Origin: Gemmataceae bacterium
GTDB lineage: Bacteria > Planctomycetota > Planctomycetia > Gemmatales > Gemmataceae
Length of the DNA: 16,503 nt
Assembly (NCBI GenBank): GCA_947490035.1
Contig: CANLGS010000016.1
Location: 1-16,503, forward strand
Direction of reading: 5' to 3'
The translations under genes and the position numbers were made by a program. Within the stretch, counting starts at the first letter, position 1. Each line of letters opens with the position of its first letter. Shown here one piece after another: positions 1,461 through 15,494 of this stretch. The notes beneath the pieces are model-generated. The model saw only the letters and a list, made by a program, of their open reading frames with translations. It was not told the origin of the DNA and ran no database searches.

Positions 1461-2219
1461 GTGACCGCAGCCGCGGTGTTCGATCAGGTGGTGAAGACGT
1501 ACCCCACGGGGCCGTTCGCGCGCGGCGGGGTGCCCGCCGTGCGCGGCGTGTCGCTGACCGTGCCCGCCGCGCGCGTGTTCGGGCTGCTCGGCCCGAACCG
1601 GGCCGGCAAAACCACACTCGTCAAGTTACTTCTTTCGCTCGTGCATCCCACCTCGGGCGCGATCACGCGCCTCGGGGCGTCACTGGGCAACCGCGGCACG
1701 CTCGGCCGCGTCGGGTACATGCACGAGAACCACGCGTTCCCGCGCTACCTGTCCGCGACCGAACTGCTCACCTTCTACGGCGGACTGTCCGGCGTGCCGT
1801 CGGGAGCGCTGTCCGCGCGCGTCGCGTCGCTGGTCGAACGGGTGGGCCTCGCGGACCGCAAGAGCGAACCGATCGCGCGGTTCAGCAAGGGCATGGTGCA
1901 GCGGCTCGGCCTCGCGCAGGCGCTGCTGAACGACCCGGATCTGCTCATCCTCGACGAACCGACCGAAGGGCTGGACCTGACCGGGCGGCAACTGCTGCGG
2001 GCGGTGGTGCGCGAGCGCAAGGCCGCCGGCAAGACGGTGCTGCTGGTGTGGCACGTGCTGCCCGAAGTGCAGGAGTTGTGCGACGCCGCCGCGGTGGTGG
2101 TCGCCGGGAAGGTCGTGTTCGACGGCACGCTGCCGGACCTGCTGCGCGACCCGAAGTCCGGCGCCGCGCGGAACCTCGAAACCGCCCTCCAGAGCCTCTA
2201 TCAGTCGGAGGCCGCATGA
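1461..2219 (+). CDS. ABC transporter ATP-binding protein
   Basis: This is the ATPase subunit of an ABC-2 type exporter, 252 residues from the GTG start. In order it shows Walker A GPNRAGKTT at residues 44-52, an E-type Q-loop region GYMHENHAFPRYLSATE at 85-101, the degenerate signature FSKGM at 141-145 (common in ABC-2 exporters), Walker B LLILDEPTEGLD at 161-172 and the H-loop histidine H198. Walker A carries R where most homologues have G (GPNGAGKTT). The lysine and threonine that bind ATP are intact, so activity is plausible. Its stop codon TGA (2217-2219) overlaps an ATG (2216-2218), the classical ATGA coupling, but the permease now begins 140 bp downstream because a repeat lies between them. 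Substrate unknown. The start could also be ATG 1407; GTG 1461 is preferred because of its RBS and because homology begins there. Confidence 0.88.
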   Translation: MTAAAVFDQVVKTYPTGPFARGGVPAVRGVSLTVPAARVFGLLGPNRAGKTTLVKLLLSLVHPTSGAITRLGASLGNRGTLGRVGYMHENHAFPRYLSATELLTFYGGLSGVPSGALSARVASLVERVGLADRKSEPIARFSKGMVQRLGLAQALLNDPDLLILDEPTEGLDLTGRQLLRAVVRERKAAGKTVLLVWHVLPEVQELCDAAAVVVAGKVVFDGTLPDLLRDPKSGAARNLETALQSLYQSEAA

Positions 2220-2225
2220 ACGCGA
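2209..2225. repeat. 17-bp direct repeat, left copy
   Basis: AGGCCGCATGAACGCGA, identical to 2352-2368. This copy carries the ATGA overlap of the ATPase stop and the original permease start, preceded by a full GGAGG (2207-2211). Together the two copies frame the palindromic element like a target-site duplication. Confidence 0.8.
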
Positions 2226-2242
2226 CGGGCTGCTGCCTTTGT

Positions 2243-2318
2243 TCTTGTGGCACAGACATTCCTGTCTGTGCGGCTGGACCACCCGAAGCACACAGACAGG
2301 AATGTCTGTGCCACAAGA
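2243..2318. repeat. Nested palindrome, H module (complete pair)
   Basis: The 28-bp arms 2243-2270 and 2291-2318 are perfect reverse complements around a 20-nt loop. Each arm is itself a hairpin: CACAGACA-TTCC-TGTCTGTG on the left and its complement with a GGAA loop on the right. A further small hairpin, CCGCCGC-GGA-GCGGCGG, follows at 2325-2341. The same 28-bp right arm occurs at 10291-10318, and a sequence variant of the pair at 15423-15494. It lies between the ATPase and permease genes. Confidence 0.9.
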
Positions 2319-2324
2319 GAAGAG

Positions 2325-2341
2325 CCGCCGCGGAGCGGCGG
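2325..2341. repeat. Short hairpin CCGCCGC-GGA-GCGGCGG
   Basis: This 7-bp perfect stem with a GGA loop lies directly downstream of the H module and inside the same 17-bp direct-repeat frame. It shares the stem-GGA-stem design of the other hairpins in the window. Confidence 0.7.
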
Positions 2342-2351
2342 ACCACATTGT

Positions 2352-2368
2352 AGGCCGCATGAACGCGA
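2352..2368. repeat. 17-bp direct repeat, right copy
   Basis: Identical to 2209-2225. It carries the present permease start ATG 2359. Upstream of this copy the Shine-Dalgarno site has become TAGG instead of GGAGG, so the inserted element apparently weakened the local RBS. Confidence 0.8.
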
Positions 2369-3339
2369 TGCCCGCGACCATTCTCACCGTCCGATGGATG
2401 GTGCGCGACACCTTCCGTCAGTCGCTCGCCTCGAAACTGTTCTGGGTGATGCTCGGTCTCACGTCGCTCTGCACGCTGTTCGCGATGAGCGTGAGTGTGA
2501 CCGGCGCCGAGGAGCGCGAACGCCACCCGGCGGAACTGCCGCTGTACATGCCGAAGGGCCAGGGCGTCGACGGCATCCGCGAACCGCACGGCACCGTGTC
2601 CGTCAGGTTCGGGATGGTCGAATACCCGGTCACGAAGGGCAAAGCCGACTCCGTCCGCGAGCTTCAGTTATGGCTCGCGGGCATCCTCGCGGACACCGCC
2701 GGCGTGCTGCTCGCGCTGCTGTGGACGGCCGGGTTCGTGCCGGCGTTCCTGGAGCCGCACGCGGTCACGGTGCTGCTGGCGAAGCCGGCGCCGCGGTGGG
2801 CGATCCTGGCCGGCAAGTACGCCGGCGTGGTGCTGTTCGTCGCGCTGCACGCGACCCTCTTCGTCGGCGGGACGTGGCTCGGTCTCGGCTTCGCAACGGG
2901 CGTGTGGGACGTGCGGTACTGGCTGGCGGTGCCGCTCTTGGTGACGAACTTCGCGGTGTTCTTCGCGTTCAGCACGTTCCTCGCGGTGTGTACGCGCAGC
3001 ACGGTGGTGAGCGTGTTCGGCACGCTGCTCTTCTGGGTGCTGTGCTGGGCGATGAACTTCACCTACCTGCGGTTGACCGCGGCGCCGGTGGAGGGGATCA
3101 CGCCGTTCGCGCAGTTCCTGGTGGAAGCGGGCTACTGGATTCTCACGAAGCCGCTGGACCTGAGCGGCATCTTCTTCGACGCGATGGACGCGGGGAAGTA
3201 TTCGGCGCCAGTGCCCGAACTGGAAGCGGTGAAGCAAAAGGGGAAGTTCCATCCAGAGCTGTCGGTGCTGGCGTCGCTCTCGTTCGCGGTCGGCGTGCTG
3301 GCGGTAGCGGCCTACGAGTTCCGCAACATGGATTATTGA
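2359..3339 (+). CDS. ABC-2 type transporter permease
   Basis: This 326-residue membrane protein is the likely partner of the ATPase encoded just upstream. Hydrophobic segments lie at about residues 27-48, 107-132, 150-178, 188-211, 215-236 and 301-319, giving six helices with a large extracytoplasmic loop between the first two. The loop-plus-helix LLAKPAPRWAILAGKY at 139-154 is typical of ABC-2 permeases of the gliding/NatB-like class. The longest frame extends upstream to 2239 but only through the palindromic repeat (a WHRHSCLC-type translation), so ATG 2359 is chosen; ATG 2368 is an alternative. The native RBS has been altered by the element. The export substrate cannot be told from sequence. 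It converges on the TIGR03000 gene, with 18 bp between the stops. Confidence 0.82.
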   Translation: MNAMPATILTVRWMVRDTFRQSLASKLFWVMLGLTSLCTLFAMSVSVTGAEERERHPAELPLYMPKGQGVDGIREPHGTVSVRFGMVEYPVTKGKADSVRELQLWLAGILADTAGVLLALLWTAGFVPAFLEPHAVTVLLAKPAPRWAILAGKYAGVVLFVALHATLFVGGTWLGLGFATGVWDVRYWLAVPLLVTNFAVFFAFSTFLAVCTRSTVVSVFGTLLFWVLCWAMNFTYLRLTAAPVEGITPFAQFLVEAGYWILTKPLDLSGIFFDAMDAGKYSAPVPELEAVKQKGKFHPELSVLASLSFAVGVLAVAAYEFRNMDY

Positions 3340-8373: not shown

Positions 8374-8621
8374 GACGAGCCGGGTTGGTTTAGCTCGCTG
8401 CTTTGCAGCAGGACGATGTTGCGTTGTCCGAGCGTATTCCGCTTCACACAGCGCGAGGAAGGCTGTTCCAGCACCGCTTTCGCCGAGAAGTCGAATTCGA
8501 CTTCGATGGTCTGGAACAACCTCGCGGATCGCGGTTCCATCGAAGTCGAATTCGACTTCTCGGCGGCGGTGCCGTGAGCCTTCCGCGCCACAGGTCGGGT
8601 AGTAGACCGGCCCGGCTCGTC
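8374..8621. repeat. Nested inverted-repeat element with 11-bp ends
   Basis: The outer arms GACGAGCCGGG (8374-8384) and CCCGGCTCGTC (8611-8621) are perfect reverse complements. Inside, GGAAGGCT/AGCCTTCC (8457-8464 with 8577-8584) pair next, then a perfect 28-bp pair 8482-8509 with 8537-8564. Each 28-bp arm centres on the 18-bp palindrome GAAGTCGAATTCGACTTC. The layered symmetry suggests a miniature inverted-repeat element about 250 bp long. No flanking target duplication was recognised. Confidence 0.6.
8482..8564. repeat. Perfect 28-bp inverted repeat with two copies of an 18-bp palindrome
   Basis: The arms 8482-8509 and 8537-8564 are perfect complements around a 27-nt loop. The 18-bp self-complementary core GAAGTCGAATTCGACTTC occurs at 8487-8504 and at 8542-8559. 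It is the inner layer of the larger nested element. Confidence 0.9.
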
Positions 8622-10237: not shown

Positions 10238-10355
10238 GTAGGGTGGGACAAGGCTTTGCGCCGTCCCACCATCTTCGATCCTCAAAGCAGCACAGACAGG
10301 AATGTCTGTGCCACAAGAAAGAGGTGGGACGGCGCAAAGCCTTGTCCCACCCTAC
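10238..10355. repeat. 33-bp inverted repeat (G module) around half an H module
   Basis: The 33-bp arms 10238-10270 and 10323-10355 are perfect reverse complements (start GTAGGGTGGGAC, end GTCCCACCCTAC). Each arm is internally palindromic: GGTGGGAC pairs with GTCCCACC around an AAGGCTTTGCGCC core. Between them lies one 28-bp H-module arm (10291-10318) identical to 2291-2318. It sits between the sigma factor and kinase genes and would form a large hairpin in their transcript, ending 10 nt before the kinase ATG at 10366. Confidence 0.9.
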
Positions 10356-12783: not shown

Positions 12784-12865
12784 CTCGCGTTCCGACCGTT
12801 CGACCTGCCAGGTGTGGTTACTTCTTCGCCTGGGACGCGGAAGGCTCACCGCAGTGCCGTGAGGA

Positions 12866-12954
12866 GTGTAGTCATCACGCTCCGCGTGATGGCCTTCGGG
12901 CGTTCCGCGGCGCCCGCTCGCACCGCGGCATCACGCGGAGCGTGATGACTACAC
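12866..12954. repeat. Nested palindrome with 26-bp arms
   Basis: The arms 12866-12891 and 12929-12954 are perfect complements around a 37-nt spacer. Each arm is itself a hairpin: CATCACGC-TCC-GCGTGATG on the left, the same stem with a GGA loop on the right. The sequence is unrelated to the H module, but the design (stem, TCC/GGA loop, stem, doubled as an inverted pair) is the same. The spacer also carries CCGCGG inverted boundaries. Confidence 0.88.
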
Positions 12955-13017
12955 GCCGGACCCGTTGTGATGCTTTCAACCGCCGGGATGACTGTTGGCG
13001 CCCTTGCCCCGAAACGG

Positions 13018-14988: not shown

Positions 14989-15381
14989 ATGGCGACTCGG
15001 CGCTCACGTCTGAAGAAGAATTTGAAGAAGCTGCTCCCGGCCGTGACCGTGACGCTGACCACGGTGCCGTTCGCGGTGTGGTCGGCGCCAGCGCAGGCGT
15101 TCTTCCCGCCGGCCTGGTCGGTGCCGCCGGTCGTGACCGTCGTGCCGCCGGTGGCGCCGCCGCCGCTGATCGTGGTGCCGCCGGTCAGCCCGCCGCCGTT
15201 CGTGCCGCCGCCGGTGGTGCCGCCGGTGATCGTGGTGCCGCCGGTCAGCCCGCCGCCAATCGTGGTGCCGCCGCCGCACCAGTGCCCGCTGCCCAACGGC
15301 GTGCCGGAACCGGCGACCGTCGCCAGCGCGCTGATCGGGCTGGCCGCGGTCGCCGGCTACCGCTTCCGCCGCAAGCAGTGA
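14989..15381 (+). CDS. Pro/Val-rich PEP-CTERM sorting-domain protein
   Basis: A 130-residue exported protein. A basic N terminus (residues 1-14) is followed by a hydrophobic signal ending SAPAQA-FF near 37-38. The middle (about 40-97) is a Pro/Val repeat in which IVVPPVSPPP occurs twice at a 20-residue spacing; the encoding 30-bp DNA unit is repeated at 15168-15197 and 15228-15257. The C terminus VPEPATVASALIGLAAVAGYRFRRK is a PEP-CTERM signal: PEP at 106-108, a membrane helix, then a basic end. Exosortase is known to cleave such tails at the membrane. The extended PPV repeat suggests a structural or matrix protein. The gene converges on an XrtA-type deacetylase. No exosortase gene is visible in the window. 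Confidence 0.85.
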   Translation: MATRRSRLKKNLKKLLPAVTVTLTTVPFAVWSAPAQAFFPPAWSVPPVVTVVPPVAPPPLIVVPPVSPPPFVPPPVVPPVIVVPPVSPPPIVVPPPHQCPLPNGVPEPATVASALIGLAAVAGYRFRRKQ

Positions 15382-15382
15382 A

Positions 15383-15415
15383 GTAGGGTGGGACAAGGCT
15401 TTGCGCCGTCCCACC
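15383..15415. repeat. G module, single arm
   Basis: Identical over 33 bp to the G-module arm at 10238-10270. It begins just behind the PEP-CTERM stop (15379-15381) and is followed by a paired H-module variant instead of its own complement. Confidence 0.9.
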
Positions 15416-15422
15416 ACCTTCT

Positions 15423-15494
15423 CTTGTGGCACAGGCTTCCAGCCTGTGTTCCGTTAAACTGCCCGAAACACAGGCTGGAAGCCTATGCCACAAG
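15423..15494. repeat. H-module variant, paired hairpin between convergent genes
   Basis: The 28-bp arms 15423-15450 and 15467-15494 are complementary with one mismatch. The left arm holds CACAGGCT-TCC-AGCCTGTG, a sequence variant of the CACAGACA-TTCC-TGTCTGTG hairpin at 2251-2270 in which both stem sides changed together. It lies between the convergent PEP-CTERM and deacetylase genes, so it may terminate both. Confidence 0.9.

Follow-up and report, generated by a model that had tools for sequence, protein, structure and literature searches.

A REPIN-like repeat with an exceptional 17-bp target duplication at an ABC transporter gene overlap in a Gemmataceae bacterium

Introduction

How did a repeat element come to invade the overlap between the stop codon of one gene and the start codon of the next without breaking either gene? 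The question is raised by an ABC transporter locus within the window, by which we mean the whole stretch of 16,503 nt analysed here. Between its ATPase and permease genes stands an insert of 126 bp (2226–2351), and the 17-mer AGGCCGCATGAACGCGA occurs exactly at both edges (2209–2225 and 2352–2368), as the initial annotation had described. That annotation proposed a recent insertion of a palindromic 'H-module' with duplication of its target. The insertion of REP and REPIN elements is poorly known, and an empty site in close relatives combined with a 17-bp duplication makes for an unusual footprint. Here, we compare the junction with those of related genomes, and the insert with the other copies of its family.

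Results and discussion

The junction and its direct repeat

The features of the locus are as follows (a strand is given where one applies):

1461–2219, + strand: ABC transporter ATPase (Pfam ABC_tran), with a C-terminus resembling that of relatives and its stop TGA (2217–2219) within the left 17-bp copy
2209–2225: left 17-bp repeat copy, AGGCCGCATGAACGCGA, an exact word match; G025 has a single copy
2216–2353, + strand: relay ('ghost') ORF of 45 codons, beginning in an ATGA with the ATPase stop and ending 5 nt before the permease ATG at 2359
2226–2351: inserted REPIN-like element, 126 bp, absent from the junction in all 16 same-genus relatives that have both genes (G015 has a different repeat there)
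2226–2241: remnant of the left outer arm plus linker (CGGGCTGCTGCCTTTG), its outer REP hairpin missing by comparison with the arms of L114, L117 and L256
2243–2270, − strand: left H arm, core 20-mer at 2251–2270, from inverted-repeat and core searches
2291–2318, + strand: right H arm, core 20-mer at 2291–2310, from the same searches
2325–2350: complete right outer REP hairpin CCGCCGCGGAGCGGCGG with its end ACCACATTG (a GTGG head when read on the opposite strand), as 26-nt exact matches elsewhere and a hairpin check indicate
2352–2368: right 17-bp repeat copy, an exact word match containing the present permease start
2359–3339, + strand: ABC-2 type permease (Pfam ABC2_membrane_2)

Base composition predicts ~0.002 chance cases, across the whole window, of a 17-mer standing twice within 300 bp, and the only other close pairs found there lie in a palindrome (8487/8542) and in a low-complexity coding stretch (15167–15241). 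The possibility that the ATPase had degraded after the insertion was considered and rejected, as its seven changes at columns invariant in the seven relatives compared fall within the range of those relatives themselves (seven in G025, eight in G014, 17 in G020, and 0–1 in the other four). One residue of the ATPase is an observation apart: codon 2049–2051 encodes Trp where 7/7 relatives compared have Ser, directly before the H-loop His (VWH for VSH).

An empty site in relatives

Searching for the permease gave hits in 90 of the 95 genomes of the family, including weak ones that are probably paralogues. Among the 18 other genomes of the genus, 16 had a close permease match, with weak matches only in G013 and G018. 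Of these 16 relatives with the gene pair, 15 retain an uninterrupted 4-base overlap of ATPase stop and permease start (14 ATGA and one GTGA, in G023). When the window site was compared with the relatives by BLAST, the two matches either side of the insert overlapped on the relative's DNA by 17 bases in G025, 16 in G009, G010, G011, G012 and G014, 18 in G017 and 13 in G020; in eight more distant same-genus relatives the matches ended before the junction (−5 to −356) and did not overlap. G025, the closest relative available, with 86–89% DNA identity around the site, carries the 17-mer once, followed by TGCCC, which is the pattern expected before insertion.

The initial annotation had also predicted that removal of the insert and one repeat copy would restore an ATGA overlap preceded by GGAGG, and exactly such uninterrupted junctions occur in G009, G010 and G012 (CAGTCGGAGGCCGCATGAACGCG) and in G025 (CCCGAGGCCGCATGAACGCGATGCCC). 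An exact search for the presumed junction 23-mer found it in 0 of 343 loci, and the relatives compared at the site all depart from it at one or more positions. Because the matches overlap and G025 has a single 17-mer, sequence comparison gives good support for a gain of 143 bp since the divergence from G025, of which 126 bp are element and 17 bp duplicated target. The first proposal that this gain was 'recent' finds partial support: it postdates the split from G025 at 86–89% identity, but the closest other match to the insert in its own genome, on contig C46, reaches 89% over 131 query bases in a genome that is 68% complete.

Anatomy of the insert and its repeat family

The H arms of the insert are 28 nt each, 100% complementary and spaced 20 nt apart, and the RNA fold has a predicted energy of −79.7 kcal/mol (z −9.6). 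Its two ends differ. The right arm reaches the natural end of the family, as 26-nt exact matches elsewhere on the own contigs examined attest, and the left arm begins inside the inner flank of the outer hairpin as seen in L114, L117 and L256. Inspection of the boundaries at 2226 and 2351 found no inverted ends. The insert gave 87 further matches in its own genome, many of them one copy read on both strands, and no donor more than 89% identical was found in this 68%-complete assembly. Rfam returned no match; our literature searches found no paper describing the element, and the 14-mer ACAGGAATGTCTGT was absent from the paper texts searched.

That the H-module is a real repeat family, as the initial annotation supposed, is borne out by 239 exact copies of the core 20-mer CACAGACAGGAATGTCTGTG in the own genome (4.67 Mb, 754 contigs). 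The same core occurs in 3 of 18 other same-genus genomes (91 copies in G011, seven in G013 and two in G025). Cores usually form simple inverted pairs (45 of 57 elements in a first set of contigs, mostly 17–22 nt apart, and 63 of 73 in the larger tested set). By a rough hairpin rule, which overlooks the GTAGGGTGGGAC arms with their long loops and takes in a few hairpins of the host, an outer hairpin was present on both sides in 19 of 73 copies, on one side in 14 and on neither in 40. Read on the opposite strand, the GGCTAC or GGACCACA terminus of many outer arms forms a GTAG or GTGG head. In G011, the core lies within an element of ~145 bp with different ends, many copies of which bear the inverted ends CTSATWCACG/CGTGAATSAG.

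Several further repeats were observed alongside the family. A nested copy at 10238–10355 holds one H core within 33-nt perfect inverted arms (GTAGGGTGGGACAAGG...CCCTAC); it lies, by eye, directly upstream of a kinase-like gene, whose longest ORF call (10243) begins inside the element. At 15383–15494, a GTAGGGTGGGACAAGG arm adjoins another inner palindrome (CACAGGCTTCCAGCCTGTG), and the edge CTTGTGGCACAG is common to the CACAGGCTTCCAGCCTGTG palindrome and to H, such that inner palindromes look exchangeable inside one outer frame. Inverted repeats of other sequence occur at 8481–8565, 12863–12957 and 1229–1376, with arms of 29, 29 and 68 nt. At L119:4290–4339 and L224:1053–1108, elements sit inside host inverted repeats resembling terminator stems; insertion into hairpin loops would explain such nesting.

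Genes matching PF01797, the family in which a cognate RAYT was sought, gave five hits in the own genome and were present in 16 of 19 genus genomes. The H core did not flank the two own genes inspected (C51 and C261; two other hits, C34 and C581, lay outside the inspection), where other repeats were found instead. On C614, a PF01797 gene and an H copy are ~2.7 kb apart, and the four PF01797 hits of G011 are all >70 kb away from the nearest exact core. The PF01797 search, combined with a motif scan near the two own genes, thus found no linkage of the H core to a RAYT; as the own genome is incomplete, the cognate gene may be missing from it. As a separate observation, the own PF01797 transposase genes at L120:1–900 and L147:2300–3100 are each flanked by a distinct repeat of their own (TTTACGCCGAAGGCGTTG.. 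and CACAGGGCGGAAGCCCTGTG).

Target duplication among other copies

If duplication were a habit of the element, comparable direct repeats should flank its other copies. From 101 loci (1.19 Mb) holding 80 elements, seven were dropped at contig ends, leaving 73 copies in which a direct repeat was sought between the 120-nt flanks. A long direct repeat was found in one of the 73, the window copy itself (17); the remaining 72 had 10 exact bases at most, or a score of 13 where both hairpins themselves repeat, and 866 control pairs of mismatched flanks reached up to 13 exact bases. We also compared 57 own copies with relatives' DNA, of which 28 aligned on both sides (a further four had a single spanning match and were left unscored). 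The matches overlapped on the relative's site in one of these 28, again the window copy, with the other 27 ranging from 0 to −331; only seven of the 27 align within 20 nt, and the footprint test is weak for the other 20. A clean case, L119, had ~10 nt replaced and nothing duplicated.

A parallel set from G011 comprised 40 stretches, yielding 41 copies with exactly two cores 50–66 nt across and full flanks. Boundary repeats were present in four of the 41: 16 bp in L232, 9 bp in L223, 9 bp in L235, and 20 bp with two mismatches in L230. Exact repeats of at least 9 bp occurred in 3/41 copies versus 20/1640 control pairs, and of at least 7 bp in 7/41 versus 160/1640, a modest excess. When the copies were sorted by a crude end motif, repeats were present in none of the 10 that had both ends and in 4 of the 31 others, a contrast that is not significant. 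Bases shared by target and element were seen by eye at one junction in L232 (ACGATCCGG, nine bases), L223 (ACACG, five) and L230 (CGGTGCC, seven). An empty-site search for L232 and L230, the two G011 copies with the best repeats, found the right-hand gene alone conserved. In L232 the right repeat copy matches the end of that conserved gene, which makes the left copy the added one; in L230 the repeat lies within non-conserved DNA.

A general habit of target duplication was accordingly rejected, as no long repeat was seen around 72 of 73 own copies and the two matches failed to overlap at 27 of 28 alignable sites. Of the initial reading, insertion with target duplication stands for the window locus, where 15 of 16 relatives are uninterrupted and eight show an overlap of 13–18 bases, but the expectation of similar repeats around other own-genome copies failed. 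The 17-bp duplication in the window is an exception within the family, and it is reasonable to read its length, as the initial annotation did, as a hint of an unusual mechanism.

Proposed mechanism and alternatives

Starting from what is established, namely the empty site, the duplication, the identity of the element and its missing left hairpin, we infer that a partial REPIN-like element entered the ATGA overlap after the split from G025 in one illegitimate event that duplicated 17 bp and kept both genes, a reading to which we give an even chance. The element is a high-copy nested palindrome, composed of an inner H palindrome pair and an outer REP hairpin with a GT(A/G)G head, of which a partial copy was inserted. 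In a template switch, the nascent strand would leave its template near the overlap, move to an element copy at a few matching bases, copy part of it and return 17 nt behind its point of departure, producing both a cut arm and a direct repeat with no transposase. An identical product would arise if a staggered break took up a piece of an element while being filled in. A point against the reading is that microhomology at the junction in the window is doubtful, as it would need a donor with a GTCGCGG-type hairpin and the loss of one G. The insertion was presumably tolerated because the duplicated 17 bp carries both the ATPase stop and the permease start, leaving both proteins whole. The duplication seen at this overlap can accordingly reflect survival, as invasion of a single overlap spoils either the ATPase end or the permease start, and survival without a doubled overlap needs a new start, as perhaps in G015.

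A broader proposal, that REP-like elements in Gemmata spread partly by such copying, leaving one cut end, short shared bases at the junction and variable duplications of ~9–20 bp, alongside a duplication-free route, seems to us unlikely at present; we are equally reserved about regarding such a mechanism as a bacterial look-alike of LINE-style or template-switch retroposition.

Among the alternatives, single-strand insertion of the IS200/RAYT type, which makes no larger duplication, would leave the 17-bp repeat to a separate tandem duplication. PF01797 genes are on hand both in the own genome and across most of the genus, and the anatomy is REPIN-like with GT(A/G)G heads, a head described in PMC2817692; this account nevertheless requires two events at identical bases, and the H core flanks none of the PF01797 genes examined, making it improbable. 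We are similarly doubtful that the element is a MITE whose transposase produces long target duplications of varying length, for which IS1549 and IS1634 (8–514 bp; PMC2266710) offer a precedent. The inverted ends of many G011 copies and the 9–20-bp boundary repeats in four of 41 would suit such an element, but the window insert has no inverted ends at its boundaries, and no long repeat accompanies 72 of the 73 own copies or, as judged by a crude motif, the 10 G011 copies that retain both ends. Were a transcript of the element copied into the site by target-primed reverse transcription, one complete end, one cut end and a variable duplication would be expected, an anatomy that matches the window insert and, less clearly, L230 and L223 of G011; template switching on DNA alone gives an identical anatomy, and we hold the reverse-transcription route to be very unlikely. 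An assembly artefact, conceivable in a fragmented, repeat-rich assembly of 754 contigs at 68% completeness, is more improbable still, given that the sequence on either side of the insert is collinear with the two genes as found in relatives, that none of the other own contigs examined matches the left 25 nt of the insert, and that both repeat copies continue correctly into their respective genes.

A second invasion of the same junction

In G015, ATPase stop and permease start stand 266 nt apart (L049:854–1119), and between them lies a different, unrelated nested palindrome whose arms measure 29 nt and which gave 84 matches in that genome (its own copy counted, and some copies matched on both strands). 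Aligned with a single gap, the two edges of this insertion agree at 15 of 18 positions, a score that 647 of 4831 random pairs also reach; the likeness is not above chance and gives no ground for claiming a target duplication. The ATPase–permease junction is thus a repeated target of insertion, and since the G015 insertion shows no demonstrable duplication, duplication may be unnecessary for an insertion here to survive. Two unrelated high-copy repeats, in two species of the genus, have entered one and the same junction, which recommends it as a natural test bed.

Consequences for translation

The initial annotation held that the start codon had been duplicated, that a 45-codon ORF had been left behind and that the permease Shine–Dalgarno sequence had become poorer, all of which are present in the sequence. 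The first ATG (2216) overlaps the ATPase stop TGA (2217–2219), and upstream of the present permease start GGAGG has given way to TTGTAGG. The permease may be translated by way of the relay ORF, with ribosomes passing from the ATPase stop to a restart at 2216, a stop at 2353 and a second restart at 2359. REPs inside operons are known to affect downstream yield or to protect the upstream message, and by analogy so stable a hairpin between the ATPase and permease reading frames may reduce the amount of permease made or shield the message upstream of it. At this locus, translational coupling may thus have passed to a relay ORF that spans a highly stable hairpin.

Comparison with known systems

Like REPINs, as described in PMC3116915, the H element is a short inverted pair with a short spacer, present in hundreds of copies (239 cores; simple inverted pairs in 63 of 73 tested elements) and patchy among related genomes. 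Unlike REPINs in that description, its arms of 20–28 nt are palindromes of other sequence, often nested between other REP hairpins, and one copy bears a 17-bp target duplication. As none of the PF01797 genes examined proved to be a RAYT bordered by the H repeat, the H element is not filed as a member, even though it works like a REPIN-type repeat.

Its GTAG/GTGG-headed outer hairpins in inverted pairs, the head standing at one hairpin end in many outer arms, resemble the GTAG-tagged REP superfamily; PMC3733652 records repeats of this type in Planctomycetes and, for O. terrae, finds that most GTAG-20 elements have GTGG heads. It differs from that superfamily in that its outer pair encloses an unrelated inner palindrome; the main text of PMC3733652 does not contain the word 'Gemmata'. 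Of the hallmarks of a MITE moved by a DDE transposase, terminal inverted repeats were not found at 2226/2351, nor was a fixed-length duplication found, with a long direct repeat in one of 73 own copies. IS200/IS605 elements are described in PMC2817692 as making no larger target duplications; of 28 alignable copies of the H element, 27 show no overlap, 20 of them aligned too loosely to be informative, and the window copy shows one of 17 bases. The window copy resembles IS1549 and IS1634 in the long direct repeat around its insertion, as reported in PMC2266710; those are autonomous DDE insertion sequences, whereas for the H element the long repeat is the exception. We therefore regard the locus as a well-supported insertion footprint of a known kind of repeat, carrying an unusual duplication for which one illegitimate event could account.
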